64,000 nt of DNA from positions 61,586-125,585 of IMG/VR virus record IMGVR_UViG_3300024308_000021; one strand, 5' to 3'. The stretch's first letter is position 1, and each line of letters begins with the position of its first letter. Under the pieces are notes generated by a model that did no database searches, had not been told where the DNA came from, and worked only from the letters and a program-made list of their open reading frames with translations. Both the position numbers and the translations under genes were made by a program. The DNA is from a virus. Positions 4,949 through 62,291 of the stretch are shown in pieces.

Positions 4949-6385
4949 ATGTCTTCGATCACAGCCCACCTCCGTGCATTGGGAACAGAGACTCCCGAGT
5001 ATCAGCAGAAACAGTCTCTGAGTCTGGAAGCTCATCTCTCCGAACTCGAACAGATGCAACTCCAGTTTTCAGAAGAGCAGTACAACTACACCGAAGAAGG
5101 TATGTTGGATTCGATCTGGAACGGCATCAAAGCCTTCTTTAAAGCCATTGTCGACTTCTTCAAGCGCCTCTTCGGCAGCGGTCCTACCAAAGAGCAGAAT
5201 GCTACTCTGGACAAAACCGAGAAAGAAATCGATGATTTAGCCGAAGCTATGAAAGACGTCGATTTCACCAAACCCGACCAGGATGCTGAAAAGATCCTTA
5301 AGGAAGCGGGATTGGTGGTAGATACACCCATTCGGCTTTCTGATATACCCACCGGTAGCCTGGCTGACTTTGACGCGTTCATGATCTCAGACAACGGCAA
5401 GCCTCTCACTCCGGATCAGTTTGACAAATCACTCGATCAATCCGAGCGTAATAAACTCACTCGCGTTTGGTTGGACGATCTGGTAAGAGGTGGGCAGCAA
5501 AAACCAGCTCGCACCAAAGAAGAGAAGGCTGGTGAGCGTGTAGCTAAGCGCGCTGCTCAGGTATTGCCTAACGATGCTACTCCGGAACAAGTAGCCAAAG
5601 TCGCGTCTAAGGCCGTCGCCGTTACCGACGCTAAGATGCGTCTGCTGTTGGACGAGGTAGGTCGCTGCAATATCCCAGGTGTGGAGTACGAAGGCTCTAA
5701 GCTGCACATCGCTCTGGCTAACTACCGCATCTACTCTGAGAAGTTCATCACAGCCTCAGTTCTTCTGAGTGAGGCGGAGTCTGTTGCCAAAGAGTTTGAT
5801 AGTAAGAAATTCGATCACCTCACCGAAGATTCTATTGCTAAAGACGGCTTCTTCGGACCGTCCAGCGTACCTTTGCTTAAATGGAATCCTGAAGACAAGA
5901 AATACGTCTTCAAAGAGAAAGGTCACGACACCTCCCCCCAGGGTTTTGTAGAAGACATCTTCGCACGCGCTGTACTGGGCGCTAATGACTACGCTGGTGT
6001 AGTGGCTAACGTTTCCAAAAACACCGATACCAAAACCGTAGGTGCTCTGATCAAATCTGTGCAAGAGCAAATCGCTCAAGCCCGTAAGTCATCTGCTGTC
6101 TACGTTAAGGTTCTGGGCGTGGTGGAAGCAATTTACGCTGCAGTTAATAAAATCGATCCTAAGACAGCAAGCAAGGAAGAGGCCGCAGCAGCCAAAGTCG
6201 CGGCTTCGATCGTCCGTGAGATTGGTCGCCTTACCGCTGGTTCTGCAACAAACCAGCGCAATGCTCTGGCTAACGCACTGCAAGCTGTGCGCATCCTGCG
6301 CCGCAAGGCCGGTAAGCTCAAGGAGTACAACGGTCTGATGAAGAAACTCAACGACGAAGTTGCAGCTATCAAAGCTAAGAAATAA
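4949..6385 (+). CDS. Internal head (inner body) protein paralogue 1
   Basis: A 478-residue protein, first of six paralogues in the window that share an acidic N-terminal segment, a cleavage-like motif and a following amphipathic helix. Here residues 48-51 read TEEG, followed by MLDSIWNGIKAFFKAI and an aromatic-basic end (DFFKRLFG, to about residue 76). The rest is long, helical and Lys/Ala-rich. In phiKZ a head protease is reported to cut after [SAG]-x-E, and the T-E-E/A-M-E/S-M-E sites here fit that type. I infer a packaged inner-body protein whose propeptide is removed in the head. AAAAAGGA precedes the ATG by 8 bases. The gene ends at a strong terminator. Confidence 0.75.
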   Translation: MSSITAHLRALGTETPEYQQKQSLSLEAHLSELEQMQLQFSEEQYNYTEEGMLDSIWNGIKAFFKAIVDFFKRLFGSGPTKEQNATLDKTEKEIDDLAEAMKDVDFTKPDQDAEKILKEAGLVVDTPIRLSDIPTGSLADFDAFMISDNGKPLTPDQFDKSLDQSERNKLTRVWLDDLVRGGQQKPARTKEEKAGERVAKRAAQVLPNDATPEQVAKVASKAVAVTDAKMRLLLDEVGRCNIPGVEYEGSKLHIALANYRIYSEKFITASVLLSEAESVAKEFDSKKFDHLTEDSIAKDGFFGPSSVPLLKWNPEDKKYVFKEKGHDTSPQGFVEDIFARAVLGANDYAGVVANVSKNTDTKTVGALIKSVQEQIAQARKSSAVYVKVLGVVEAIYAAVNKIDPKTASKEEAAAAKVAASIVREIGRLTAGSATNQRNALANALQAVRILRRKAGKLKEYNGLMKKLNDEVAAIKAKK

Positions 6386-6398
6386 AAAGAGCATATCT

Positions 6399-6425
6399 GG
6401 CGAGGGGTACACCCCTCGCCATTTT
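6399..6425 (+). terminator. Intrinsic terminator
   Basis: Ten-bp stem GGCGAGGGGT / ACCCCTCGCC followed by ATTTTATG. It closes the first internal-protein gene. The TATG at 6425-6428 immediately follows. Confidence 0.85.
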
Positions 6426-6451
6426 ATGACCTCATCTCCTAGGAGTACCCC

Positions 6452-7741
6452 ATGCGTAAGTCTAACCTAACTCTCCAGATGGAGGCTATTGCCTACCAGT
6501 CTGGAGTTTCTAAAAACAAAGTATTCCCCCGCCTAGCGGAAGCGTACGATGCTATCATTCACGAAGTACGTAAATCCAAGCGTCTGCGTGCGGGCGATCT
6601 CGAGCGTTTCGGTATCGCTAAGATCATCTTCGAAGAGTGTGGTGTCCGTACCACACAGCAAGTAGACCAAGGCATCTACAATGCCTGTGTGTATCCCCCG
6701 CTGGTGGATCGTAACAATCCAATTGCTGCCGACTTCTGGGTTGAGATGCGTGAGAACGAAGACGCAATGCATTTCATCAAAAGAGCCAAAGGGGCTATCT
6801 CCGGTACAGTAGACCTACTCAACGCTCGAGTAGGCGGTGTCTACTCGGAGATTGAGTGTGAGATGCATGTAGGGGATCAGTTTTTCTTTGACTCGAAATA
6901 TAACGGCTCTCACATCGCAGCGATCATGTGTCACGAGATCGGCCACGTGATGACTTATTTCGAAGCGCTCTCAGAAACAGCTACGATCAACCGCGTTCTA
7001 CAAGCGGTGTGTGCTGACGTACTGCGTGGTGCCGACTACGAACGCCGTCTGGTAATGCTCACTGAAGCCGAAAAGGTTCTTGGTGTTAAGATCGATCTGA
7101 AAGAAGAACACGCCAAGATGGAGAAGATGGAGGGATATCAGATCCTGATCATCGAAACCACAGCGCGCAAACCCAGATCTGCACTAGGGTCTCCACTCTA
7201 CGACTTCAAAGCCTGGGAACAAGCTTCAGACCAGTTCGCTACTCGTCTGGGTTATGGTATCTATCTGTCCGAAGCTTTGGACATTATGTTCCGTAGTTTC
7301 GATTACCCGACTTACTGGAGCGCTCCTCGTTTTTACATGATGGAGGTGTTCAAGTGGATCTTCGGTACGGCGATGCTGATCATCCCAGGATACAACGTCC
7401 TGTTCGTGTTACTTCTGTTTTTGATGGGCAATCCGCTGTGGGATGTCTACGACTCCCCCACTGACCGCATCGCTCGTATCCGTCGTGAGACTTTGGGTGA
7501 GCTTAAGAACGCTAAGATCGATCCTAAGCGTCGTAAGGTACTACTCGAAGACATCGCTGCAATGGATCGGATGTTGGAAGGTATGAAAGACCGTCGTACT
7601 TTCTACGAGCGCGTGTGGATCTTACTGTCCTCTACAGCACGTACCGGTACACGTCAACAACGCATCCAGCAGGAACTCGAGTCCCTCGCTAACAACGACC
7701 TCTTTTTGGCATCTGCTAAGCTTAAGGAGCTTGCATCATGA
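6452..7741 (+). CDS. Predicted M48-like integral-membrane zinc metallopeptidase
   Basis: A 429-residue protein with the zincin signature HEIGH at residues 161-165 (two zinc ligands and the catalytic Glu). A second element EQASD (E256, D260) follows, matching the ExxxD that gives the third ligand in M48 peptidases. A hydrophobic segment lies at about 303-326. SPTDRIARI at 335-343 recalls the HPPxxxRIxRL motif near the C-terminus of HtpX/M48 proteins. It probably cleaves proteins at or in a membrane. It lies between internal head protein genes and shares the coding direction, so it could be packaged or act in virion maturation or entry; this is inference. A good ribosome site (CCTAGGAG) precedes the ATG. 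The stop overlaps the next start by 4 bases. Confidence 0.72.
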   Translation: MRKSNLTLQMEAIAYQSGVSKNKVFPRLAEAYDAIIHEVRKSKRLRAGDLERFGIAKIIFEECGVRTTQQVDQGIYNACVYPPLVDRNNPIAADFWVEMRENEDAMHFIKRAKGAISGTVDLLNARVGGVYSEIECEMHVGDQFFFDSKYNGSHIAAIMCHEIGHVMTYFEALSETATINRVLQAVCADVLRGADYERRLVMLTEAEKVLGVKIDLKEEHAKMEKMEGYQILIIETTARKPRSALGSPLYDFKAWEQASDQFATRLGYGIYLSEALDIMFRSFDYPTYWSAPRFYMMEVFKWIFGTAMLIIPGYNVLFVLLLFLMGNPLWDVYDSPTDRIARIRRETLGELKNAKIDPKRRKVLLEDIAAMDRMLEGMKDRRTFYERVWILLSSTARTGTRQQRIQQELESLANNDLFLASAKLKELAS

Positions 7742-8184
7742 AACTCACAGCATCCCAGTTCAAACAAAATTTCCAGTACCTGCTGGTAGACCAGCGCCTG
7801 TCTCCGGATGATCGTAAGTCCGCCATCGGATTTGCTTTGGCTCGTGGGATCTCCTACGCTCTGGACGTACCGGCTACCAAGGTAACTAACGCACGGATGT
7901 ACTACCTCCAGCAACACCAGCCCGTGGTACAAGGATTGCTCTCTGAACTCGTAGAGCATTACGCGTTTCCCATCGCCTCCACCGAGCGTATCGTAGAGCA
8001 GCTCTGGACAGCCCGCTACCAACTCGTACACATCGCCGACTACGCTCAAGACAGCACCCTGGCTTCAGTAGCCATGACTGGCACCGAGACCGACATCCTG
8101 ACTCCTCGTGTGCGTGAGCTCTATCCGTGTCGTGAACTCGCTTACACAGCGGGTCGCGTGGCAGGTATCCTGAGAGGAGAGTAA
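7738..8184 (+). CDS. Hypothetical protein
   Basis: A 148-residue protein coupled to the metallopeptidase gene by an ATGA overlap and followed 2 bases later by the next internal-protein gene. It is mostly helical, with no membrane segment or recognisable catalytic motif. The tight coupling suggests it works with the peptidase (for example as a partner or inhibitor) or in the same head compartment, but this is only positional inference. No family recognised. Confidence 0.82.
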   Translation: MKLTASQFKQNFQYLLVDQRLSPDDRKSAIGFALARGISYALDVPATKVTNARMYYLQQHQPVVQGLLSELVEHYAFPIASTERIVEQLWTARYQLVHIADYAQDSTLASVAMTGTETDILTPRVRELYPCRELAYTAGRVAGILRGE

Positions 8185-8186
8185 TC

Positions 8187-9380
8187 ATGGTCGGGCGTAA
8201 TCGTTTTTTCGACAATGAAATGTTCAAATCGGAACAGGAGTTGATGGTAGAGGAAATCGAGCGTCAGCAGGCGCTCGAATGCGAAGCCACACTGCAACTC
8301 GAACACCTGGATCGGTTGTTTGAACTCCAGGGTCTACTCTCCAGCGGTGTACAGCTCAACGACGGGATGCGTTACACCATGGAAGAACACATGGGGTACA
8401 TTCCAGAGAACCTGAACCTCGCCATGGAAGGGGTAGTCTCGACTATCTGGGAAGGCATCAAAGCCTTCTTTAAAGCCATCGGGAATTTCATCTACACGCT
8501 GTTTACAGGTAAGTCCAAGTCCTCTACCAGTCGAGTCGACTCCTACCTGGAAAAGCTCAAGGAGTTCGAATCGAAATACGGAAACTTCGTTCGAGCCGAT
8601 CTTGAAAACTGGTATCCCGATCAGATCAAATCAACCAAAGCATCTGCTTTGAAATCTTTTCCGGACGACGCCAAACTTAAAGCCAAGATCGAACACCTCG
8701 AGACGATCTACGAAAAGGAAGTTTTCAAAAAGCATTGCGCTGTGATGTGTCTTCTCCCTCACTTAAGCATCTATGGAAAACTCAATTCCATAGTGACCGC
8801 TCAGTTGGCTGGGATGCCAGACTTTGCCAAGTACAAAGACGCCATCAAGAACCAGTCGAACGGGCAAGTTGTTTCGTACACCCCCCTTAAACTGGACAAG
8901 GCTCTGCCCGACGCCATCTACAAGTCTTATGTCGACTTGTTTAAGAACTCTGGGGAAAAGCTTCCGACGGAGTTGGGTGAAGTCACCGAGCAGTTGCTTA
9001 AAAATGCGCTGATAGGTTCATTGGAATCTCAGAAGTTGGATCGCTATGGTGCGATTTTCCGTCGCTGTGTTGGAACACACCCAATCGATATCATGAAAGA
9101 CTATCAACAGTGGATCGATCGAACTGCTAAAGATCTTCCCAAAGTCAAGAAAGAAATCGATGACCTTGTTAGCAAAATCAACTTGGAAACCCCACCTGGC
9201 GTAGCTACTGGTTTACGACAACTTGGTAAAGATGTCAACGCCCAGATCATCGCTATCAACTTCATCCATACCCTACTGGACGGGTTGATCGCGAGTTCAA
9301 CCTACCTCTTGCAGGTGGATAACTCGATCTGCGATCTAGTAGCGTACACCCAAAACCAAGCCATCAAAGCCGCCCCTTAG
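8187..9380 (+). CDS. Internal head protein paralogue 2
   Basis: A 397-residue member of the internal-protein family. Residues 1-78 form an acidic, Glu-rich propeptide-like segment, ending in NLNLAMEG (75-82). The amphipathic helix STIWEGIKAFFKAI and an aromatic tail (to about 108) follow. The mature part is Lys-rich and helical. The AME site fits the [SAG]-x-E cleavage rule described for phiKZ head proteins. It shares the near-identical IKAFFKAI octet with the 4949 gene. It sits in a run with the peptidase gene upstream and paralogues 3 and 4 downstream, with gaps of less than 10 bases. Confidence 0.75.
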   Translation: MVGRNRFFDNEMFKSEQELMVEEIERQQALECEATLQLEHLDRLFELQGLLSSGVQLNDGMRYTMEEHMGYIPENLNLAMEGVVSTIWEGIKAFFKAIGNFIYTLFTGKSKSSTSRVDSYLEKLKEFESKYGNFVRADLENWYPDQIKSTKASALKSFPDDAKLKAKIEHLETIYEKEVFKKHCAVMCLLPHLSIYGKLNSIVTAQLAGMPDFAKYKDAIKNQSNGQVVSYTPLKLDKALPDAIYKSYVDLFKNSGEKLPTELGEVTEQLLKNALIGSLESQKLDRYGAIFRRCVGTHPIDIMKDYQQWIDRTAKDLPKVKKEIDDLVSKINLETPPGVATGLRQLGKDVNAQIIAINFIHTLLDGLIASSTYLLQVDNSICDLVAYTQNQAIKAAP

Positions 9381-9388
9381 GAGCAGTC

Positions 9389-10546
9389 ATGAAAAACCGT
9401 TTTGTAAGCGAAGAAGTAATCAACCCTCTCGTAGACCCACAACTCTCCTACGAGCATCTGGAAACTCTCTTCGAGATACAACAAGCACTCCAACACGGTG
9501 GGTTCCGTGAAACAATGCTCGCTCAGGAGTCGGCTGAGTCTATCGGTGTAACTTTCACTGAAGAAGGACTGATCGAAACCATCTGGAACGGCATCAGAGC
9601 TTTCTTCAAAGCCATTGCTGACTTCTTCCGCAAACTGTTTGGTATGAAATCCAAGCAGGAAGCCAACTTCGAAAAAGCAATGAAAATCGCAGAAGACCTG
9701 GAACATACAGGTATCACCAAGGTACAGCCTGGTGAGATCTGCTCTGCAAACCGTGAGGCCATTCGTAAAGAAGTTTCCGGTAAACTCGCCGCCGAATTCG
9801 CTGCTGACGCCCAGGCTGTGGCGAAGGAGTTGGACAAACTTACCACCGAGTTTGACTACAACCTCCGCATGCTCATCGGCCTTCAGCGGCTGGGTCTTTT
9901 CCCAGGGCATGGTCGGCAACGGACGTTCGAGGCTAATTCATTCTTCGAAGTCTTCTTCGACGATGGTGCGTTGTCACCATCGCGTGGTCTGAAGAACATC
10001 GCAGATACGCTCAAGTACTACCGTGATGATTATGTGCATTTCGAAGTAGCCGTTTCCAGCGGGGATGTGAATAAGATCATAGCCATCGGCTCTGACTCAG
10101 TATATTTCGGCGACAACTTTAGCAAATTCCTTAAACGGATTCACGATGCCGCTGGCGTGGCTATGCCAAAATACCTTAGTGGTCTGGATCCCAACATCCT
10201 CACGACCGCTTGTGAGTGCATTATGCATAAGCAAGCTTTGAATTTCGAAACGCCCAAAGTTTCCGATATTGAAACCGCGCACGAAAATAGCAAGAAATTC
10301 AGAACCGAGTTTACTCGAAACCGAGAGATCAAAGCTACACTGGATCGCTTTAGTACATTTGACATCAAACCGGCACCCGGTCGCCCGTACGGTGATCAGT
10401 TCGCTGAGCATCTTAAAACGTTGGGTAAGGGCGTCAGGATTTATTTCGCTTTCTTGGAGGCGTGTGATCGACTGGAGACCAAAGCCGGCGAAGCGTTCGA
10501 TACCTACTTGAGTATAGCAGTTATGCTCGAGATGGTTCGTAAGTAG
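9389..10546 (+). CDS. Internal head protein paralogue 3
   Basis: A 385-residue family member with the same layout: acidic N-terminus with a HLETLFEIQQ segment, the site-like FTEEG (56-60), then LIETIWNGIRAFFKAIADFF and RKLFG (to about 85). The nearest relative in the window is the 4949 product, judging by this segment (TEEG..IWNGI[KR]AFFKAI). The C-terminal domain is helical and diverges from its siblings. It follows paralogue 2 by 8 bases with a GGAG ribosome site and is probably co-transcribed with it. Confidence 0.75.
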   Translation: MKNRFVSEEVINPLVDPQLSYEHLETLFEIQQALQHGGFRETMLAQESAESIGVTFTEEGLIETIWNGIRAFFKAIADFFRKLFGMKSKQEANFEKAMKIAEDLEHTGITKVQPGEICSANREAIRKEVSGKLAAEFAADAQAVAKELDKLTTEFDYNLRMLIGLQRLGLFPGHGRQRTFEANSFFEVFFDDGALSPSRGLKNIADTLKYYRDDYVHFEVAVSSGDVNKIIAIGSDSVYFGDNFSKFLKRIHDAAGVAMPKYLSGLDPNILTTACECIMHKQALNFETPKVSDIETAHENSKKFRTEFTRNREIKATLDRFSTFDIKPAPGRPYGDQFAEHLKTLGKGVRIYFAFLEACDRLETKAGEAFDTYLSIAVMLEMVRK

Positions 10547-10554
10547 GAGTTGAT

Positions 10555-12006
10555 ATGGAATTTACACTAGAGGAATTAGAACAGGAACACACTGTTCTAA
10601 TGGGGGAGGCTCAGTCCCTCCTCCTCACCCTGGAGCAGTTAGACTCGCTCCAGTTCCAATACGCCTCTGTAGGCGTTTCACGTAACGACGTACTGAGTCT
10701 CGAACAGATCTCCGGATCTCCTACAGACCTCAATCCCAACTACTTCACTGAAGTTCCTTCCCAGACCAACCTGAACCTCGCAATGGAAGGTCTGATGGAC
10801 AAAATGAACGCTGGGGTTATGGCTCTGTTTGGTGTGGTGATCGGTGTGATCATTGCGGCGTTTGTCTGGATCTCTAAACTGTTCCGTAGTTCCGACTCCG
10901 GCACAGCCTCGGCTAACGCAGCACTAGCAGCAGCTCAACAGCAGCTCAATACCTTAATGGTAGCTGAAGCTGCGCTCAAAGCCAAGGTCGAAGGCGATAA
11001 CGAGTCTAAAGTTATCGAGCTCTACAGAAACCTCGTCATTCCACCTCTGAATGATGTGCTGGTAGCCACAACCTTTGCCGCCCTGGATACCTCAGTGTCG
11101 AAGTTCTCCAGCTCAGGTAATCTGGCTTTCGCTAGACAGCATTCTCACGTTCTTCGGTACATTACCGATGGTGTGCAGTATATCAACCCCAACGACGAAA
11201 TCGTCAAAGGGATGGTTTATGAGAACTTCGAGAACTACCTGACGGCGATGACAGCGCTGATCCAGCCGACTACTCCGACTCAAGAGACCTACAATCGCCA
11301 GCAAACTTCCTTCACGGAAGCTGGTGGACATAACTTCACAGCACAGCCAGTACGTCCGATCCTGGATCTGTTTGCTGTGCAGTCTGGTACGTCTCGGAAG
11401 ATCTACGCTGACGGCAATCCGATGTCCGCTGCGGAGTACGAGTCACTCCGCAAGAAGACTATCGAAGAGTTACGTCAAGTCTCCTCCCCACAGATCACTA
11501 AGAACATAAGTGATTTTGATAAGCTGGCTTTAGGTAAAGGTTCTTTGCTGAATCCCGATACTTACCGCCTCAAAGAGGAGTTTGACAAACTTCTGGCTCG
11601 TCAGGCTGAACTCAGTATCTCAGTTTACTTCGATACCAAAGCAGCCTCTGGTCGTATCAACGAGATCGTTAAGAATCTCGAAGATACCAAAAAGAAAGTG
11701 GATCGTATTCGTAACTCAGGCGGTATGCCAGACAAAGCTCGGTTCAAAGCGTTCAAGGACTCCCTGGACTCCGTACGTGAAGATGCCAAGCTGATGTCGA
11801 ACTACGCCCTGTTCTACGATAACTTCTACAAGAACCAGGCTAAGTTCTTCAGAACCATCTACGAAGGCATGAAGAACGTACAGCGCGAGCTCGAGTCACG
11901 ACTCAACGAAGAAACTTCAGAATCTCTGAAGCATGCCATCCGGGAATCCAAGAAACATCCCGATGAAATGGTAGATCGTCTGAAAGCCATCGCGGACAAA
12001 ATGTAA
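10555..12006 (+). CDS. Internal head protein paralogue 4, with membrane segment
   Basis: A 483-residue paralogue. The acidic N-terminus ends in NLNLAMEG (72-79), identical over eight residues to paralogue 2. Here the amphipathic helix is replaced by a strongly hydrophobic stretch (about 86-106, ALFGVVIGVIIAAFVWI), so this member may insert into a membrane. The rest is long and helical with Ala/Gln-rich parts. Ala-Met-Glu fits head-protease cleavage. A TAGGAG ribosome site precedes the ATG. The gene ends at a bidirectional terminator shared with the convergent 12036 gene. Confidence 0.75.
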   Translation: MEFTLEELEQEHTVLMGEAQSLLLTLEQLDSLQFQYASVGVSRNDVLSLEQISGSPTDLNPNYFTEVPSQTNLNLAMEGLMDKMNAGVMALFGVVIGVIIAAFVWISKLFRSSDSGTASANAALAAAQQQLNTLMVAEAALKAKVEGDNESKVIELYRNLVIPPLNDVLVATTFAALDTSVSKFSSSGNLAFARQHSHVLRYITDGVQYINPNDEIVKGMVYENFENYLTAMTALIQPTTPTQETYNRQQTSFTEAGGHNFTAQPVRPILDLFAVQSGTSRKIYADGNPMSAAEYESLRKKTIEELRQVSSPQITKNISDFDKLALGKGSLLNPDTYRLKEEFDKLLARQAELSISVYFDTKAASGRINEIVKNLEDTKKKVDRIRNSGGMPDKARFKAFKDSLDSVREDAKLMSNYALFYDNFYKNQAKFFRTIYEGMKNVQRELESRLNEETSESLKHAIRESKKHPDEMVDRLKAIADKM

Positions 12007-32023: not shown

Positions 32024-32084
32024 GCAACCAAGCCAGTGCGGCTAATGGTATGTGAACAAATCTCACTTCGTACGGAGAGTAAAC

Positions 32085-34334
32085 ATGTCTTTCTTTAATA
32101 AGCAAAACGAGCAGGAAAAAGGTTTCGGCCACCTGGTAGGTGCACTGCGCTCTAGCCTGAGCGATGGCAGCATCGGTATTCAATCCAACCACGCTTCCAT
32201 GGTTTTCTCCACCGAGAGCCTGGACGCTACCGCAGTCCAGGACATGAACCGTCTGGGTTCCACCATCGGTGCTACCATCGATGCAGTCCTGTCTCAAGAA
32301 GAGATGGAACTGGTTCCTCAGTTCGAATCTGCTGACGGTGCCAAGTCCGACTACCTGACCAAAATGGCAGAGCGCTCTGCCAACGCAGCTAAAGAAGCTG
32401 CTACTATCGCCATGATCGGCGGTAAAGGTAACCCGACCCAGTACGTTGAGCAAGCCAATGCCGTCGGTTACTCCACTGAAGGCGCTGACGTTGTAACTCC
32501 GTATCTGCCGGGTGGTGACTTCGACCTGAACGGTCTGGGTGCCTCCAACCTGACCTACGAAGCTTTCGAAGGCAAAGACTTCGATCGCGTTGCTGCATGG
32601 GCCGGTTCCTGGAACCTGGGCGCTGCTCGTCAGGATACCTTCGTTGAAGCGTTCTTCCCGACCACCGTTCTGAACCCAGATCAGAACGCCTACGACATGA
32701 CCATCAACCGCACCATGACCATGCGTGGCGTACGTCGTAAGCTGTCCGGCGACCCGACCGACCTCGGCTACAAGAACATCCTGGAAGCGTACAAGAATGG
32801 TGCCATGCTGAAGAACCAGCACACCACTCTGACTCCGTACCGCGCTGCCGACGATTCCAACGCCGACAAGTTCATCGACGAAGCTCTGTTTGCTCCGGAA
32901 ACCAAGACCATCGATGGCGTCGACTACATCACCGCTCCTCTGGCGATGAACGTACCGGTTGACATCATGGGTGTTTCCCAGAACCCGAACGTTCTGGAAG
33001 GTACCTTCTCTCAGACTGACCAACTCGACGGCTTCATGCGTGTTGACCAGCTGTATATGAAGGTCACTCACACCGAAGGTGCTGAGACCAAGACCTCCGT
33101 GCTGAAGTTCAACACCATTGCCATGGATCGCAGCCAGTTCGTCAAGTCCCCGACCGGTGACTGGATGGAATTCCTGCTGAGCATGCCGACCAAAGACATC
33201 GCTGTTCAGCACGATCAGCTCGACGCCAAAGGTAACGTAGCTGAAGCTCTGGCCGCTCTGAAAGCCGCTGGCTACAACGTACGTTTCTCTGTAAACGTTT
33301 CCGGTGAAGCCAACGTACAGACTGGTACTGTTAACGTGTTCTCCAACAAGCCGACCGTTGTTGAAGTACGTAACAAGACCACTGGTGAAATCGTAGATCA
33401 CAAGTCCGGCGCTGTTGCTGCACTGCTGGCCAAGATGACCTTCGAATTCGTTGCGTTTGACGGTACCTTCCGTCGTACCAACGGTAACCGTCGTACCCAG
33501 GGCCTGCTGATCGACCGTAACGTGCGTAAAGTTCGCTACGTCGTGCCCATCGGTGCTCCGATCTCCGTACAGACCACTCTGAACGAAGCCGAAGATACCC
33601 AGAGCATCAACGACCTGATCAACGGTACCCGTCTGCGTAACAGCATCATCGGTGTCGACACCGTCCACGAGAAGTTCGAAGCTCTGCTCGAACTCAAGAA
33701 GAACGCTCCGGAAGTCTTCCTGGGCGAGCGTATTCCTGAGTCTCTGGAAGGTCCTGGTAAGTTCCTGTGCCGTCCGTTCGTCAAGCACCTGGATCTGGAC
33801 GTTTACGCCAAGCTGCAGTCCCTGAACTCTGGCGATCGTATCGAAGACCTCAACGCTCTGCTGTGCAACACCATCCGTGATGCCGGTAACGAGATGATGA
33901 TCGACTCGAACTACCTGCCGGTGCTGGCTACCTACACCCAGGGTGCCGAGACTCGTCCGCACATGCTGGTCGGTACTGACCTGAACATCCCGCAGTACCT
34001 GATGACCAAAGGTGATCCGCGTAGCTTCGGTCCGAACCTGGACTCCACCGTGGTTGCCTCTCCGCAGGACTCCATGGAGAACTACATCTACCTGGTGTTC
34101 TCTCGTGTCAACCGTCAAGGTCCGGATCCCCTGTCCTTCGGTAGCCACCTGTGGATTCCTGAGCTGGTGCAGATCGGTCAGGTCTACGACGCTGGCGCGA
34201 ACATCAAGCAGCTCACAGTGTCTCCGCGTAACATCCACACCATGCAGTTGCCGTGTATGTACCGGATCAAGGTCATCAACCTCCAGAAGGCTATCACCGA
34301 GCTGGTCAAGTTCCCGACCAAAGAAATGGCTTAA
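32085..34334 (+). CDS. Major capsid protein (phiKZ gp120-like)
   Basis: A 749-residue protein, close to the length known for the phiKZ-type capsid precursor. The start at 32085 follows TACGGAGAG; upstream in-frame codons lack a site. The N-terminal ~100 residues are helical with several possible [SAG]-x-E head-protease sites, then a beta-rich region as expected for an HK97-type shell protein. Codon use is the most GC-ending biased in the window along with the 19900 gene, indicating high expression. A strong terminator follows. I call it from length, bias and synteny rather than from a signature motif. Confidence 0.75.
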   Translation: MSFFNKQNEQEKGFGHLVGALRSSLSDGSIGIQSNHASMVFSTESLDATAVQDMNRLGSTIGATIDAVLSQEEMELVPQFESADGAKSDYLTKMAERSANAAKEAATIAMIGGKGNPTQYVEQANAVGYSTEGADVVTPYLPGGDFDLNGLGASNLTYEAFEGKDFDRVAAWAGSWNLGAARQDTFVEAFFPTTVLNPDQNAYDMTINRTMTMRGVRRKLSGDPTDLGYKNILEAYKNGAMLKNQHTTLTPYRAADDSNADKFIDEALFAPETKTIDGVDYITAPLAMNVPVDIMGVSQNPNVLEGTFSQTDQLDGFMRVDQLYMKVTHTEGAETKTSVLKFNTIAMDRSQFVKSPTGDWMEFLLSMPTKDIAVQHDQLDAKGNVAEALAALKAAGYNVRFSVNVSGEANVQTGTVNVFSNKPTVVEVRNKTTGEIVDHKSGAVAALLAKMTFEFVAFDGTFRRTNGNRRTQGLLIDRNVRKVRYVVPIGAPISVQTTLNEAEDTQSINDLINGTRLRNSIIGVDTVHEKFEALLELKKNAPEVFLGERIPESLEGPGKFLCRPFVKHLDLDVYAKLQSLNSGDRIEDLNALLCNTIRDAGNEMMIDSNYLPVLATYTQGAETRPHMLVGTDLNIPQYLMTKGDPRSFGPNLDSTVVASPQDSMENYIYLVFSRVNRQGPDPLSFGSHLWIPELVQIGQVYDAGANIKQLTVSPRNIHTMQLPCMYRIKVINLQKAITELVKFPTKEMA

Positions 34335-56049: not shown

Positions 56050-56337
56050 ATGTCTGTCCAAATCGATCCCAAGTACGTTAAGAAACTGGCTCGCAACCGG
56101 GGTACTGTAAAGCAGTTGGATCCGCTGATGGTAGCCTGCCCTAAAACCGGCTTGCTCTACCCAGTCACTACTGACGCCCCCGTGAACTACAACATCGGTG
56201 ACGTACTGGAGTTCTCCTCCAGTGGCGACCTGGTAGCTCACACCCCGAAAAAGACCAAGGCTCGTTCCAGTAACGCTTCCTCTGGTATGACTCTACACAC
56301 CACCACGTTCTCCAAAGACAAGTGGCTGAGTTGGTAA
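56050..56337 (+). CDS. Small basic hypothetical protein
   Basis: A 95-residue basic protein with a Ser/Lys-rich C-terminal part. It follows the acidic protein at 2 bases' distance; the two may act as a pair. A terminator follows. Confidence 0.72.
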   Translation: MSVQIDPKYVKKLARNRGTVKQLDPLMVACPKTGLLYPVTTDAPVNYNIGDVLEFSSSGDLVAHTPKKTKARSSNASSGMTLHTTTFSKDKWLSW

Positions 56338-56356
56338 GGAAACCAGGGTATCTTAG

Positions 56357-56386
56357 GGAGGGGCTTCGGCTCCTCCTTTTTATTTT
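56357..56386 (+). terminator. Intrinsic terminator
   Basis: GGAGGGGC / TTCG / GCTCCTCC followed by TTTTTATTTT. Confidence 0.9.
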
Positions 56387-56403
56387 GTTTCAGGGGGTTG
56401 TGG

Positions 56404-56811
56404 ATGATAGACCCAGCTACTTTGGAGAGTTGGTTTGGAGACGAAGCTGGTCTTCAGATCTGGTATGACGTAGAAGAGTTCGCAAGACTACCTGATGGTG
56501 GGTTTCTAAACCACTGTACATCAGGAGCTCTGTATATACAGTCCGTATTAGGAGAGGGAGAGATCTACGGGTGGTTTGAAGGTACTAACCCAGATCGTCA
56601 TCCCAAGATCTTAGGTGGTCACGACTTCCTAGTGTATCGTGATAGATGGATAATCGATCCGTGGTTGTCGGTGTATCGTTGTATAGCCCCTAAAACGGTT
56701 TGGGACTTACACACTGAGTTAGACACCATACGTGCATACTACGGAGATCCTACGACCTGGGTAGTACTACGTCCCGAGGGCTTCGTAAAAGTAGAAGGAA
56801 AATGGAAATGA
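56404..56811 (+). CDS. Possible papain/transglutaminase-fold cysteine peptidase
   Basis: A 135-residue protein, start ATG 56404 (CAGGGGG upstream). It has C38 at the start of a helix (NHCTSGALYIQSVLG), H73 in GGHDFLVYRD and D85 in RWIIDPW. That Cys-His-Asp order, with His at a strand start and Asp in IDPW, is typical of papain-like or transglutaminase-like hydrolases. Small size leaves only a core fold. It overlaps the first Ntn-hydrolase-like gene by 4 bases, so it is part of the same operon. The assignment is from pattern only. Confidence 0.5.
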   Translation: MIDPATLESWFGDEAGLQIWYDVEEFARLPDGGFLNHCTSGALYIQSVLGEGEIYGWFEGTNPDRHPKILGGHDFLVYRDRWIIDPWLSVYRCIAPKTVWDLHTELDTIRAYYGDPTTWVVLRPEGFVKVEGKWK

Positions 56812-57293
56812 GTTTGATCGCATTGGATCCTGAATGCGTGGTATTTGATACCTCGTTTGTTACCAGTAAAGGTTTTATAATCCAGCAACCCAAAGGACGC
56901 TGGTATCCTGAAGATAAGATGTGGGTACTGGGGTGTGGTGGGATGTTCAACGAAGCTGCGTATGAAGAGATACGCCAGCTCGCTAAGGAGTATCTGGCTA
57001 CTGGTGTGGCAGTGGAACACAAGAATGAAGAGTTGTTCTTCCATCCGGCACTGATCACTACACCAGATCGTGCGCTACGACTGCATTGTGGTAAGCTACA
57101 GGAGGTAATCGAGCCTGAGCAGTGCGATGGTATCCTGGATCGTAGCTGGATTTTGTGTCAAGCCCAGGGACTCGGTTACTTGGAAACATTTCGGGTGATG
57201 TCTGTGGTGTGTCCTACGCTGCGTTACATCGCACATTATTCCCGTCTAACTGGTGAGATACAAGGAGCTTTCGATGCAACTACTGGTATGTAA
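56808..57293 (+). CDS. Divergent HslV/proteasome-like Ntn-fold protein (Ser at mature N-terminus)
   Basis: A 161-residue protein. AAGGA sits 7 bases before ATG 56808 but only 1 base before the earlier ATG, so 56808 is the start. After Met removal Ser is residue 1, and D13 (VVFDTS) matches the aspartate of the two Thr-type paralogues. A glycine-rich segment WVLGCGGMFNEAAYEEI corresponds to their AG[ST]xxxA[DE]-like turn. The basic residue at position ~32 is not conserved (K28 nearby). Probably a related subunit with altered or lost activity. It overlaps the next gene by 20 bases. Confidence 0.5.
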   Translation: MSLIALDPECVVFDTSFVTSKGFIIQQPKGRWYPEDKMWVLGCGGMFNEAAYEEIRQLAKEYLATGVAVEHKNEELFFHPALITTPDRALRLHCGKLQEVIEPEQCDGILDRSWILCQAQGLGYLETFRVMSVVCPTLRYIAHYSRLTGEIQGAFDATTGM

Positions 57294-57855
57294 TGGTGCG
57301 CTGTGGATTCCCACAAGCGTGATCCCTAACCCCACTACCGTACAACACCTAGACCCCGGTACGTTCTACACCGAGTATGGACTGGTGGTGGCAGCTAGCT
57401 GGAATGGAGCCGAGGTGTTCAGAGAGTACCTCGAAACAGGGCACTTTAGTACAAACCTCCCCATCGAAGCTCCGATGGATCTGGGGGTAACCTACGGACA
57501 CGACCAGAAACTCCGTGTATGGCAGCGTATCGGTAAAAAGATCATCTCGCGTGTACTGCCGGTAAACGAACGTATTCCGAGAGCTGTGTTTGGGTTTCAG
57601 GATGAAATCGAACCGTTAGATCTGGCTACCGCTGTAGCGTTGCAGCAGTTCGCTGTAGAGGGGATGGACTACGACGGAGGTTTCCTGTCCAGAAACCCGA
57701 ACTGGACGTGTCACGTTCCTATGTTGATCGACACGCTCTCAGCCAACATACTGCTGGTACGACCTAGCAGAGAATGGACAGGGGTGTCGCTGATGAGGCT
57801 TGGAAGTGATTTTAAACCGATCCCTGTAATAGTAGGGAAGAAAACGAAGGGATAA
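57274..57855 (+). CDS. Degenerate Ntn-fold-like paralogue
   Basis: A 193-residue protein from ATG 57274 (CAAGGAG upstream). Its N-terminus MQLLVCNGALWIPTS follows the same strand-turn-strand pattern as its neighbours, and GLVVAASWNGAEVFREYLE corresponds to their glycine-turn helix. It lacks the N-terminal Thr/Ser and the aspartate at position 13. It is likely an inactive subunit of the same family, or unrelated; the case rests mostly on tandem position and pattern. Confidence 0.4.
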   Translation: MQLLVCNGALWIPTSVIPNPTTVQHLDPGTFYTEYGLVVAASWNGAEVFREYLETGHFSTNLPIEAPMDLGVTYGHDQKLRVWQRIGKKIISRVLPVNERIPRAVFGFQDEIEPLDLATAVALQQFAVEGMDYDGGFLSRNPNWTCHVPMLIDTLSANILLVRPSREWTGVSLMRLGSDFKPIPVIVGKKTKG

Positions 57856-57859
57856 GGTA

Positions 57860-58519
57860 ATGACAGTCGTCGTAATAAAGGATGGCATACTGGCCATCGA
57901 TCGGTGCGTTACTTCCTCACGCGAGGGGAGATTTGTTTCTAAAAAACCGCAAACAAAAATGTTGGAGTTTTCCAAGGACAGTGAACTTACTATCAGAGGA
58001 GAACCTCTGGTCAAAGCTTTCATTGCTGGTAGCCTGACCAACGCACACACGATCCTCACCGCAATACATTCAGAGAAAACTGCGAAGTCTCTAGAGCAGT
58101 TCCTGGAGCTACACCGTCTCTACAGTGTCACTATGGCTGGGATGTATTGGTTCATCCCTTCCAGTAAGAAACCAGGAGTCTGGTGGATTGTAAACTGGAA
58201 TACTGGCGTAATACGAACAGTACCACATACGGAAAGCTACGTTACTCGCCCTACGGACGCCAACGCTACTGAGCTGGAAAAGTGGTTTGACACACCAGAA
58301 GAGGTCGTGTGGTTCTACAACAAGCTGAGCTCCGCGTGTGGGTTTGGTGTAAACATCTACAATCCTTGGACTGGAGTACTCGAGCAGATAGACGAGCCTA
58401 GTCCTGAGGTAGCTGAGAAAATCAGACAAACACTGATACGCAGCATAGACCTCTGGTTCCTGCGAGAACCAGAACCTAATGCAGAACTAAGTGCTGGAGA
58501 TAAGGAGTTGGTTAAATGA
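57860..58519 (+). CDS. HslV/proteasome-like Ntn hydrolase (Thr1 type)
   Basis: A 219-residue protein. After Met removal the N-terminus is TVVVIKDGILAIDR: Thr1 as nucleophile, D13 in the position of the HslV/proteasome Asp17, and K32 (KKPQTKM) in the place of Lys33. Then VKAFIAGSLTNAHTIL matches the AGxxADAxTL turn of HslV. Lys-type Ntn peptidases use exactly these residues. The C-terminal ~100 residues differ from HslV (~175 residues). ATAAGG is the ribosome site and the gene overlaps the next by 4 bases. Substrate unknown; proteolysis or amide hydrolysis predicted. Confidence 0.6.
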   Translation: MTVVVIKDGILAIDRCVTSSREGRFVSKKPQTKMLEFSKDSELTIRGEPLVKAFIAGSLTNAHTILTAIHSEKTAKSLEQFLELHRLYSVTMAGMYWFIPSSKKPGVWWIVNWNTGVIRTVPHTESYVTRPTDANATELEKWFDTPEEVVWFYNKLSSACGFGVNIYNPWTGVLEQIDEPSPEVAEKIRQTLIRSIDLWFLREPEPNAELSAGDKELVK

Positions 58520-59184
58520 CAATTTCTGTTTACTGGAAGGGGAAGTTTGCAACGGATCGGCAGATAAGTATAACAAAGGCCGGGAAGACTGTAGGTAAGT
58601 TGAGTCAAACGAAGATCAGAACGTTTGATGAACATAGTCCTTTTCTGTTTAATGGACACCACGTTCGCGCAATAGCTGTGGCTGGAACCCCTGCTGAGTT
58701 GGATGAAATTCTAACGGATGTGTCAGTTGAGGACCGTCCATTCCACGAAAAGGTAAACTACGATTTACTAAACTACTACTGTATACGTAAAGAAGGGGGT
58801 GGTAAATACGACATCCTCACGTGGATTTTAGCCGACAAGCTGTATCGCGTCAACTGGACTGCGTTTACTTGTCGAACTTACCGGAACGATAGCATAGATA
58901 CAACTTTATTTATTTCAGAACCTTCAGACGTACAGTTACCACTTGAAACTATCAGGTGGTGTAATTCAGCAGAAGAGATAGCGTGGCTTTACAACGCCTT
59001 CTCACGTGGTTGTGGTTACGGTGTAGATGTGCTGGACATCCACACTGGGGAGGTTACCTACCACCCTTACCCTTCCGAAGACACCAGACAGCGTATCCGT
59101 CGTACGCTGCTGGACAACTTGGATCGTTTCTTCTGTCCCCCTATTCCAGAGGACCGTGAGGAACTACTGGTTTACGAAGTCTAA
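58516..59184 (+). CDS. HslV/proteasome-like Ntn hydrolase (Thr1 type), paralogue
   Basis: A 222-residue paralogue of 57860. After Met removal: TISVYWKGKFATDRQ with Thr1 and D13, K32 in SQTKI, and VRAIAVAGTPAELDEIL for the glycine turn. The C-terminal halves also align in outline (RWCNSAEEIAWLYNAFSRGCGYGV versus KWFDTPEEVVWFYNKLS..GFGV). T1/D13/K32 are thus conserved in both. The two may form a mixed-ring peptidase with the two divergent neighbours. AAGGAG is the ribosome site. The gene ends the operon before an early-type promoter region. Confidence 0.6.
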   Translation: MTISVYWKGKFATDRQISITKAGKTVGKLSQTKIRTFDEHSPFLFNGHHVRAIAVAGTPAELDEILTDVSVEDRPFHEKVNYDLLNYYCIRKEGGGKYDILTWILADKLYRVNWTAFTCRTYRNDSIDTTLFISEPSDVQLPLETIRWCNSAEEIAWLYNAFSRGCGYGVDVLDIHTGEVTYHPYPSEDTRQRIRRTLLDNLDRFFCPPIPEDREELLVYEV

Positions 59185-59644: not shown

Positions 59645-59867
59645 ATTCGTAGTATCCCGACTCGTGGGGTGGGAACCCCACGGTCGTATTGCTTGGCTGA
59701 TTGCTATTCGCGTGGTATGGTTTCGTTTGCTTATAGCCGCAAGCATGGCTCTCGCCTGGAACTCCGACTACGGTTGGTTTACTAAGGCGGTAGTAACCCT
59801 GGTACTGATTCTCTTCTGGTCTGCGGAACGTCGTGGACACTTACAACAACTGGAGCGTATACAATGA
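59637..59867 (+). CDS. Small two-helix membrane protein
   Basis: A 76-residue protein with two hydrophobic segments (IAWLIAIRVVWFRLLIAASMALAW at ~18-41 and TKAVVTLVLILFW at ~49-61) separated by a short polar loop, with basic C-terminus. ATG 59637 lies inside the end of the 59285 gene; its stop overlaps the ligase start by 4 bases. Function unknown. Confidence 0.7.
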   Translation: MLKFVVSRLVGWEPHGRIAWLIAIRVVWFRLLIAASMALAWNSDYGWFTKAVVTLVLILFWSAERRGHLQQLERIQ

Positions 59868-61825
59868 CTCTCGAAGAACTCCGTACACTGACCGATACGC
59901 TTCGTTACTACTCGGATGCGTATCACCTACGCAACGAGCCTCTGATTTCTGATGCTGAGTACGATGCTCGGTATCGTTTACTGGAAGCCGCTGAGGCGAT
60001 CCACGGAGCTCTCCCCAACTCTCCTACCCGACTCGTAGGGGGCGCTGTTAAAATCGATTTCAGCACTGCTCAGCATCGCATTCCTATGCTCTCACTGCGA
60101 GACGTCTTCGTAGCCGAAGAACTCGTGGAGTGGTTGGAGTGGTGTACTCGTCAGTCTCAAGACCAAGCCTGGTTTATTGCCGAACCTAAACTCGACGGTT
60201 TGGCTCTGAGTCTGACCTACGAACACGGACGCTTGGTACAAGCTCTGACTCGTGGTGACGGGACTACTGGTGAGTTAGTAACAGCACAAGCCATGGCTAT
60301 CCAAAACGTGCCTCTGCGTATTCCAGCTCAGGAGCGCATTGAGTTCCGTGGTGAAGCTATGCTCACTCGTCAGCAGTTTGCTAAGCTGCGTACCAAAGGC
60401 GTAGAGCTCGCTAACTGTCGTAACGGAGCAGCTGGTGCTATGCGTAACAAAGACCCACGTAAGACTGCTGAACGTGGTCTGCGGTTCTACTGCTACCAAG
60501 TACAGCGGGACGTAGTAGGAGCTACGCAACAAGCTGAACTCGCTTTCGCTAAAGAACAAGGCTTCGAGATCTCGCTCGATCTCCTCTCCCCTTACGTAAA
60601 CCAAATCGTAGGACGTTCTCGTGAGTGGTTGCTGGCTACTGTAGCTACCGTTAAAGAACGTCGCGATGAACTCCCGGTGGACATCGACGGGATAGTGTTC
60701 AAAGTCACTTCCATTCCACTTCAGTCTGCACTAGGTTGGGTTTCCCGTACTCCTAAGTGGGCTGCTGCTTGGAAGTACTACGGGGACACAGCTGAGACTA
60801 CGCTGGACGACATCGTAGATCAAGTCGGACGTACTGGAGCTATCACTCCTCGTGCGGTACTGCAACCCGTTCGCATCGGCGGTGTTACGGTTTCCTCAGC
60901 TACGCTGCACAACTACGACGAAATCCGTAGACTCCAAATCCGTCCTGGCGTCAGAGTCCTACTGGAACGAGCTGGCGACGTTATCCCGAAGATCCGTGGT
61001 GTGGTGGGACATCCTAGTAAGGTAGTGTACACACCTCACGCAGAGCCTACTGAGTGCCCTGCTTGTGGTATTGCTTTAGTGCGTGCGGAAGGTGAAGTAG
61101 CGCTACGCTGTCCTAACGCGTCAGGCTGTCCCGCCCAGTCCCTACGTAGACTGATGCAACTCGTGTCTCGTAAAGGATTCGATGTGGAAGGAGTGGCTGA
61201 AGCTACTCTCATCCAGTCTGGAGTAGACATCGCCAATGCAGGACTTCTGTGGACCTACGACGCAGCGAAGTGGCAGTCCTTAGGGTTGGGTCCGGTAGAA
61301 GCTCAGAACGTTGTAAAAGCGTTCCAGAGCCGTCTGGATATCCCTGCGCACCAGTACTACTTCGGGTTAGGTATTCCTGGAGTAGGAGAGTCTACCGCGA
61401 AGCTTTTCGCTAAGCATTATCCGAATGTTCACGCTCTAGCTAAAGCCGCTATCGACGGAGTGCTGATAGCTCTGCCAGACGTAGGGGTAGTCACCCAAGC
61501 TTCTGTGTGTGAGTTCTACGAAACCAACCGAGCTTTCCTGGAATCGTTAGACACAGTAGGAGTTACTCCTGTAGTGACTACCACTGGAGTAGAACAGCGC
61601 TTGGCTGGTAAGACCTACGTAATCACCGGTAGTTTCACCAACTACACTCGTCCCGAGATCCAGACCGCACTAGAAGCTCTTGGAGCTAAGGTTTCAGGTT
61701 CGGTCTCTAGTAAAACCACAGCAGTGTTTGCAGGTGCAGACGCTGGTAGTAAATTAACCAAAGCCCAGGAGTTGGGAATCCCAGTCCTGGGAGAACCCGA
61801 GCTCATTCTGGAGTTAGGAGCTTAA
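59864..61825 (+). CDS. ligA: NAD-dependent DNA ligase
   Basis: A 653-residue ligase with the full bacterial layout. Domain Ia has YYSDAYHLRNEPLISDAEYD. The adenylation motif is EPKLDG (nucleophile K109), with GDGTTGE (131-137) and IDGIVFK (275-280). An OB fold, a four-Cys zinc finger (C398, C401, C416, C422), HhH repeats and a C-terminal BRCT domain (~577-653) follow. It seals nicks using NAD+. Full-length LigA is unusual in phages, which more often carry ATP ligases or short forms; size matches bacterial LigA (~670). It overlaps the small membrane gene by 4 bases. Confidence 0.95.
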   Translation: MTLEELRTLTDTLRYYSDAYHLRNEPLISDAEYDARYRLLEAAEAIHGALPNSPTRLVGGAVKIDFSTAQHRIPMLSLRDVFVAEELVEWLEWCTRQSQDQAWFIAEPKLDGLALSLTYEHGRLVQALTRGDGTTGELVTAQAMAIQNVPLRIPAQERIEFRGEAMLTRQQFAKLRTKGVELANCRNGAAGAMRNKDPRKTAERGLRFYCYQVQRDVVGATQQAELAFAKEQGFEISLDLLSPYVNQIVGRSREWLLATVATVKERRDELPVDIDGIVFKVTSIPLQSALGWVSRTPKWAAAWKYYGDTAETTLDDIVDQVGRTGAITPRAVLQPVRIGGVTVSSATLHNYDEIRRLQIRPGVRVLLERAGDVIPKIRGVVGHPSKVVYTPHAEPTECPACGIALVRAEGEVALRCPNASGCPAQSLRRLMQLVSRKGFDVEGVAEATLIQSGVDIANAGLLWTYDAAKWQSLGLGPVEAQNVVKAFQSRLDIPAHQYYFGLGIPGVGESTAKLFAKHYPNVHALAKAAIDGVLIALPDVGVVTQASVCEFYETNRAFLESLDTVGVTPVVTTTGVEQRLAGKTYVITGSFTNYTRPEIQTALEALGAKVSGSVSSKTTAVFAGADAGSKLTKAQELGIPVLGEPELILELGA

Positions 61826-61826
61826 G

Positions 61827-62291
61827 ATGTCATACGCAAAACCAATGAGTGAGCAGGAAGTTGAATACATGCGGGGTCTAGAACCCCGCGATCTACTGAC
61901 AGCTTCTATCCAAGACTGTCGTATCCAGTCTGATCCCCGTCAAGCCCACAAGCATTCCCGTAAAGTAGATCTGTTTATCCGGGCAATCCAACCTACTGGG
62001 GAAGTGAAACTCTACACCTCTCCTAAAGAGTGTATTGAGCTGCTGGAGCTTGCGGCTAAAGCGTTCGAGGGAGGAGACTACCGTAACCTTACCGACAAAC
62101 GCCAAACCTCTTACGATCGCACCTACGCTCGTAAGAAGACCTGCAAAACCCGTACTACTATTCTGGAGTTCGACACCTACCGTCAGGTCGGTGAGTTAAA
62201 GAAAACAGATGTGCAGTATTTCGTGAGTATTACCACCCCGACCGTATTCGATGACCCAGGTATCGAACTCGGCCCTGAAGACCTCAAGTAA
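61827..62291 (+). CDS. Hypothetical protein
   Basis: A 154-residue basic protein one base after the ligase stop. A Lys/Arg/Thr-rich stretch (KRQTSYDRTYARKKTCKTR) in the second half may bind nucleic acid. No family recognised. It is followed by AAAGGAG for the next gene. Confidence 0.8.
   Translation: MSYAKPMSEQEVEYMRGLEPRDLLTASIQDCRIQSDPRQAHKHSRKVDLFIRAIQPTGEVKLYTSPKECIELLELAAKAFEGGDYRNLTDKRQTSYDRTYARKKTCKTRTTILEFDTYRQVGELKKTDVQYFVSITTPTVFDDPGIELGPEDLK

Follow-up and report, generated by a model that had tools for sequence, protein, structure and literature searches.

A candidate HslV-like peptidase locus with predicted active and dead subunits in a probable jumbo phage fragment

Can a phage encode a proteasome-like peptidase assembled from both active and inactive subunits? 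The question is raised by four tandem genes in a 64,000-nucleotide window (the whole stretch of DNA that was analysed), which corresponds to bases 61586-125585 of the 125,585-base virus record IMGVR_UViG_3300024308_000021. A sequence-only reading of the window had proposed a multi-subunit peptidase related to HslV and the proteasome, with two full catalytic sets among its genes and a layout without phage precedent. Here, the assignment to HslV/proteasome-like Ntn hydrolases and the presence of a residue-less neighbour were upheld, while the number of full sets was corrected to three and the novelty of the enzymes was not retained. We consider it rather probable, on the evidence of gene sequences, that the locus encodes an HslV-like phage peptidase built as a hetero-oligomer in which some subunits are dead.

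Source phage and gene layout of the locus

The capsid protein of the window (32052-34334) shares approximately 30% identity with those of pEa_SNUABM_54, FLC9, LucasX, and PhiEaH1, all of which are phiKZ-like jumbo phages. It is probable that the window also belongs to a phiKZ-like jumbo phage, of which the record, being smaller than all of the compared genomes (218-322 kb), represents a fragment. No close relatives were found in IMG/VR by searching with peptide patterns of window proteins, MCP or alignment A2; alignment A3 gave no matches among GTDB genome contigs, and alignment A2 gave none among PDB sequences. Elsewhere in the window, an RNA polymerase beta-prime-like ORF (785-2086) reaches its stop shortly after ...MKKMHGTSLKTVDYDFHFWLS, which may reflect a split subunit or an interruption of the gene. 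Several ORFs within 4949-12006 have a common region like EEGLIDTIWNGIRAFFKAIADFFRKLF and form a paralogous inner-body-like set, and a tRNA-Val (tac) is predicted on the minus strand (61863-61955) within the plus-strand ORF 61827-62291.

The four proteasome-like ORFs, beginning at 56808, 57274, 57860, and 58516, were all found at the places given for them earlier, on the plus strand. The ATGA joins that had been described are present between 56808 and the upstream ORF (56398) and between 57860 and 58516, and the start of 57274 overlaps the end of 56808 by 20 bp. Downstream, an NAD-dependent DNA ligase is encoded on the plus strand (59864-61825, recognised by tblastn to phage LigA). In SNUABM_54, LucasX, Kodama, and Totoro, too, a DNA ligase gene lies beside a proteasome-like gene or close to one. 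Upstream, a plus-strand gene at 56050-56337 encodes a small protein of 95 aa with a Ser/Thr-rich tail, the putative first gene of the cassette described below according to a small-protein profile. When the 264 ORFs of the record were compared with a profile of the ~100-aa protein found ahead of the active subunit in eight jumbo phages, this ORF ranked first (HHalign E = 0.0021), over a short aligned part of 24 columns, and none of 150 shuffles equalled the real score. A probable intrinsic terminator (56355-56388, plus strand), composed of a 10-pair stem, a TTCG loop, and a T-rich tail, separates this gene from the following operon (56398-59184); both the terminator and the 56398 gene sit between 56050 and 56808. 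The first gene of the operon (56398-56811, plus strand) carries the motif NHC...GGHDFLVYRDRWIIDPW, which hints at a Cys-His-Asp hydrolase of the papain/transglutaminase type. The "possible cysteine hydrolase" suggested earlier thus shows a Cys...His...Asp sequence pattern, with no match in Pfam, PHROGs or NCBIfam, and a counterpart of the gene was not seen in the cassette of other jumbo phages.

Predicted active subunits and their known relatives

PPH, reported by Fuchs, Alva and Lupas in 2021 (PMC8665760), is a short homologue of the proteasome that occurs in phages and in the hosts of those phages, and it probably makes up much of PHROG_1040, "peptidase HslV family". When PHROG_1040 was compared with the whole 125-kb record, only 57860 was matched (E = 5.5e-5). 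A strict DNA pattern for MTTIxxxDGxxAAD retrieved 104 viral stretches, and a PPH profile was built from 52 non-redundant proteins among these; with this profile, 57860 gave E = 4.8e-6 and 58516 gave E = 0.0078 (E-values for a seven-protein set), and comparison of 58516 with PPH by HHalign gave E = 2.7e-4. The two proteins (57860-58519 and 58516-59184, both plus strand) are homologous (29% identity, E = 9e-21). They are sisters with support of 100/99 in the active-subunit tree, which resolves only this pair plus a few others. Both carry Thr1, Asp13, and Lys32 after removal of Met, as had been stated. 57860 is predicted to be active from PHROG_1040, the PPH profile, and alignment A4, in which Met1, Gly9, Ala12, Asp14, and Lys33 are invariant across 27 sequences including 57860 itself; 58516 is predicted to be an active paralogue of it from similarity, tree, and profile rank. 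Against a profile of jumbo-phage active subunits, 58516, 57860, and 56808 ranked first, second, and third by E-value among the 264 ORFs of the record, and shuffled copies equalled the real score in 0 of 150 cases for 57860 and likewise for 58516. Similarly to PPH, the two proteins are phage-encoded, possess no propeptide, and display the same N-terminal motif with Asp13, a Lys, and a Thr1 exposed by predicted Met removal. They are longer than PPH (219-222 aa against ~140 aa), carrying extra sequence inserted ahead of the glycine strand as well as an extended C-terminus, and the locus differs in that three predicted-active copies stand together with a dead neighbour.

The third of these copies is 56808 (56808-57293, plus strand), predicted to be active with Ser1, Asp13, and Lys28 from its profile rank, its AF2 model, and Foldseek. 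In-frame ATGs are present at 56802 and 56808, and the AAGGA at 56795-56799 lies 2 nt from the former and 8 nt from the latter, a spacing that favours the start at 56808 and hence Ser1. The sequence-only reading had recognised Ser1 and Asp13 correctly and overlooked Lys28, with which the catalytic set is complete, so three ORFs rather than two hold a full set. In alignments A4 and A7, Thr/Ser1, Asp, Lys, and the oxyanion-hole glycine are present in 57860, 58516, and 56808 and absent as a set from 57274. The match of 56808 to the jumbo active profile (HHalign E = 0.013) extends over 99 collinear columns starting at residue 1, and 2 of 150 shuffles equalled the real score; its link to PPH/PHROG_1040 is via this profile only. 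Neither 56808 nor 57274 was similar to other cluster members in the pairs tested by BLASTP, and tblastn of both in phages returned chance-level matches only. The AF2 model of 56808 (pLDDT 68.6, pTM 0.64) shows the strand and helix order of HslV, and in a Foldseek comparison with the PDB its top 50 matches were made up entirely of chains from HslV, Anbu, BPH or the proteasome (E = 6e-3 and probability 1.00 for the best), which is supportive rather than independent, the input alignment consisting mainly of PPH sequences. The alpha-beta-beta-alpha Ntn fold proposed earlier was accordingly found, for the 56808 model. As 56808 occupies a very long branch of the active-subunit tree, its orthology to the paired active subunits of other phages rests on gene order.

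As far as the enzymes are concerned, the claim that no phage-encoded system of this layout was known has to be dropped, since PPH, PHROG_1040, and the annotations of EL and CR5 precede it. The annotation "peptidase HslV family" is attached to EL gp15 and CR5_121, "putative protease HslV" to DT01 PA10_00290, and "proteasome-like hydrolase" to AH06 gp60, and two HslV genes without HslU have been reported in pSal-SNUABM-04 (PMC7823757). These proteins and that of Moabite belong to the same phage group as the window proteins and have the same residues; although already annotated as HslV-like or described so (PMC7823757), they are uncharacterised. The gene that follows them is listed only as hypothetical, of unknown function. 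Profile A4 matched PhiEaH1 (two), SNUABM_54, Noxifer, Kodama, pVa-21, LucasX (three), DT01, FLC9, and EL, the matches to PhiEaH1 and EL being by construction since the profile contains window, EL, and PhiEaH1 sequences. It found no match in phiKZ, OBP, Goslar, SURPRISE13, SNUABM_37, and Proteus phage 10. Five jumbo members match PHROG_1040 independently (1e-9 to 2e-22), and the homologues keep the residues, with Thr/Ser1, Asp and a Lys in 16/16 jumbo-phage active subunits examined. Stand-alone active copies occur in EL, Noxifer, LucasX, pVa-21, FLC9, and the other PhiEaH1 locus. The three proteasome-like genes of LucasX (loci L153, L152, and L151) are dispersed, one being located directly 3' of the DNA ligase gene; the FLC9 protein (L160:2801-3778) has a long C-terminal extension resembling a coiled-coil; and one large viral contig of 225,611 bases carries two proteasome-like genes (L010 and L067) ~36 kb apart.

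The residue-less neighbour and the gene pair in other jumbo phages

A residue-less protein of 159-193 aa, resembling 57274, is encoded directly 3' of the active gene in PhiEaH1, Kodama, SNUABM_54, Totoro, Ea35-70, AH06, CR5, and DT01, the eight sampled jumbo phages whose neighbourhood was read. The two genes mostly overlap by 4-8 bp and are otherwise separated by no more than 12 bp. PHROG_8172, listed as "unknown function", is matched by the partners of seven phages, and in all eight the equivalents of Asp13 and Lys are missing. Among 23 records searched with the partner-family profile, the family was found only in those eight genomes; it was not found in jumbo genomes with stand-alone active copies only or without active copies. 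HHalign of the partner family against PPH gave E = 5e-5 with a score of 35.2, whereas 150 column shuffles scored 10.3 on average and 15.1 at most, and the homology is limited to the C-terminal half. From a score so far above the shuffle maximum, the dead partner family is a diverged proteasome-like homologue, as judged by profile comparison. The earlier idea of active and inactive subunits thereby receives independent support, both from the pair in eight other jumbo phages and from this remote homology. Furthermore, the active gene is preceded in 8/8 phages by a gene for a ~100-aa protein, which in most cases has a tail rich in Gly/Ser. In RAY, the partner gene was matched by tblastn, and at locus L181 of a 271,182-base contig the small, active, and partner genes follow one another in that order; by its gene sequences, RAY also carries the three-gene cassette. 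The phage HslV-like enzymes are not new; the literature searched, in which subscription papers were mostly outside reach, contained no description of the three-gene cassette or of the partner as a dead subunit of proteasome-like type.

In the window, ORFs 56050, 56808, and 57274 fit this small/active/partner cassette in their predicted products. 57274 (57274-57855, plus strand) is a predicted catalytically dead proteasome-like partner and a probable relative of PHROG_8172, on the basis of its position, the partner profile, and a low-confidence model. As reported earlier, it is devoid of the catalytic residues, with Gln1, Thr13, and no aligned Lys; like PHROG_8172 members, it is residue-less and directly 3' of an active subunit, and it fits them in position and layout. 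Its HHalign match to the partner profile covers 87 collinear columns at E = 0.045, ninth among the 264 ORFs and below significance, and 1 of 150 shuffles equalled the score. HMMER with the partner-family profile did not match 57274, and tblastn of 57274 found no partner-family match. Its AF2 model, from a three-sequence alignment, is of low confidence (pLDDT 41). The best viral Foldseek matches of this model are proteins of PhiEaH1 (180 aa), Ralstonia RSF1 (183 aa), and Erwinia Bosolaphorus (172 aa) and a 159-aa protein, a hint only, as two partner sequences are in the alignment of the model. The PhiEaH1 and Bosolaphorus proteins are partner-family proteins by length and phage, and the 159-aa protein probably is. 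57274 is a probable member of the conserved cassette from this evidence, and the least certain one.

A mixed-subunit peptidase weighed against other readings

In the hetero-oligomeric reading, 56808 and 57274 would be the local copy of the conserved pair, an active Ser/Thr1-Asp-Lys subunit followed by its dead homologue from the overlapping next gene, and 57860 and 58516 would be an additional, duplicated pair of active subunits. Once expressed, the active subunits would be processed by a host aminopeptidase, the loss of Met exposing Thr1 or Ser1 as the nucleophile, which Asp13 and Lys28/32 would activate for hydrolysis while the conserved glycine behind the next strand would supply the oxyanion hole. 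A ring or barrel would probably be assembled from active and dead subunits together, and the dead subunit may shape the ring, the gate or the docking surface for an ATPase in the manner of proteasome alpha subunits. The 20S proteasome is composed of dead alpha and active beta subunits. The phage proteins share with it and with HslUV the Ntn fold and the nucleophile-Asp-Lys set; they differ in having neither a propeptide nor a recognisable alpha N-terminal helix, and in being known from genes, with a ring that we infer.

HslU, the partner of HslV in HslUV, was seen in only some of the phage relatives. HslU-like ATPases occur in CR5, Ea35-70, and AH06, all with the active and dead pair; those of CR5 (E = 1e-62) and Ea35-70 (E = 3e-74) match TIGR00390 below the equivalog cut-off. 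The gene is located ~1.8 kb behind the pair in CR5 and elsewhere in the genome in Ea35-70 and AH06. The AAA+ ATPases of CR5 (L165:1501-3564) and Ea35-70 (L167:1483-3192) contain large insertions. The search of the 125-kb fragment, an incomplete genome, yielded no HslU-like ATPase. An AAA ATPase beside the HslV-like gene of DT01 was considered and set aside, being not HslU by NCBIfam and having no match in the record. The Erwinia phage RAY has a protein of the HslUV family, gp116, whose site of localisation is the phage nucleus (PMC10299810).

Three other readings were weighed. The genes may encode three separate homo-oligomeric PPH/HslV-type peptidases, with 57274 an unrelated small operon protein. 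The stand-alone active copies of EL and the other phages named above point in this direction, as does the weak sequence support for 57274, missed by HMMER and tblastn and only ninth by HHalign. However, a dead proteasome-like homologue holds the position of 57274 in eight phages, the collinear match of 57274 is rarely equalled by shuffles, and the best viral fold matches of its model are partner-family proteins, so we regard this reading as unlikely. Less probable still, at a low level, is a specific processing enzyme or peptide ligase. Connectase, a proteasome-like protein acting as a monomeric ligase, illustrates that such a function is attainable (PMC8665760), and the ~100-aa small protein with its disordered-looking tail, which precedes the pair in eight phages and whose family ranks 56050 first in the record, could be a substrate or adaptor. 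That HslU was not found in most genomes searched is also in its favour, whereas the HslU-like ATPases of three pair-bearing phages argue for unfoldase-coupled proteolysis there.

In phiKZ-like phages, head and inner-body proteins undergo extensive cleavage, and several inner-body-like ORFs are present in the window, which would suit a virion-maturation protease acting on inner-body proteins. This proposal is nevertheless hardly credible: phiKZ, OBP, and Goslar are without a match to the family profile, and such processing is the task of another enzyme, the prohead protease phiKZ gp175, as cited in PMC7823757.

A wider proposal, which is offered tentatively and is somewhat doubtful as a whole, is that jumbo phages with kinship to the phiKZ group, which forms a nucleus, build a proteasome-like machine of their own from mixed subunits. 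One barrel would contain both active and dead Ntn subunits, the small tailed protein would serve as an adaptor or substrate tag, a phage HslU would in some phages act inside the phage nucleus, and the window phage would have expanded the set to three active subunits. If the active subunit and its partner form one complex, phages have a division into active and inactive subunits like that of the cellular proteasome. Among its roles might be the clearance of host or defence proteins, as well as quality control in the phage nucleus. The pair is found in isolated phages with laboratory hosts (Kodama, RAY, CR5, and DT01), so that direct testing is possible. As a separate observation, an FtsH-like ATPase is encoded near one of the LucasX proteasome-like copies.
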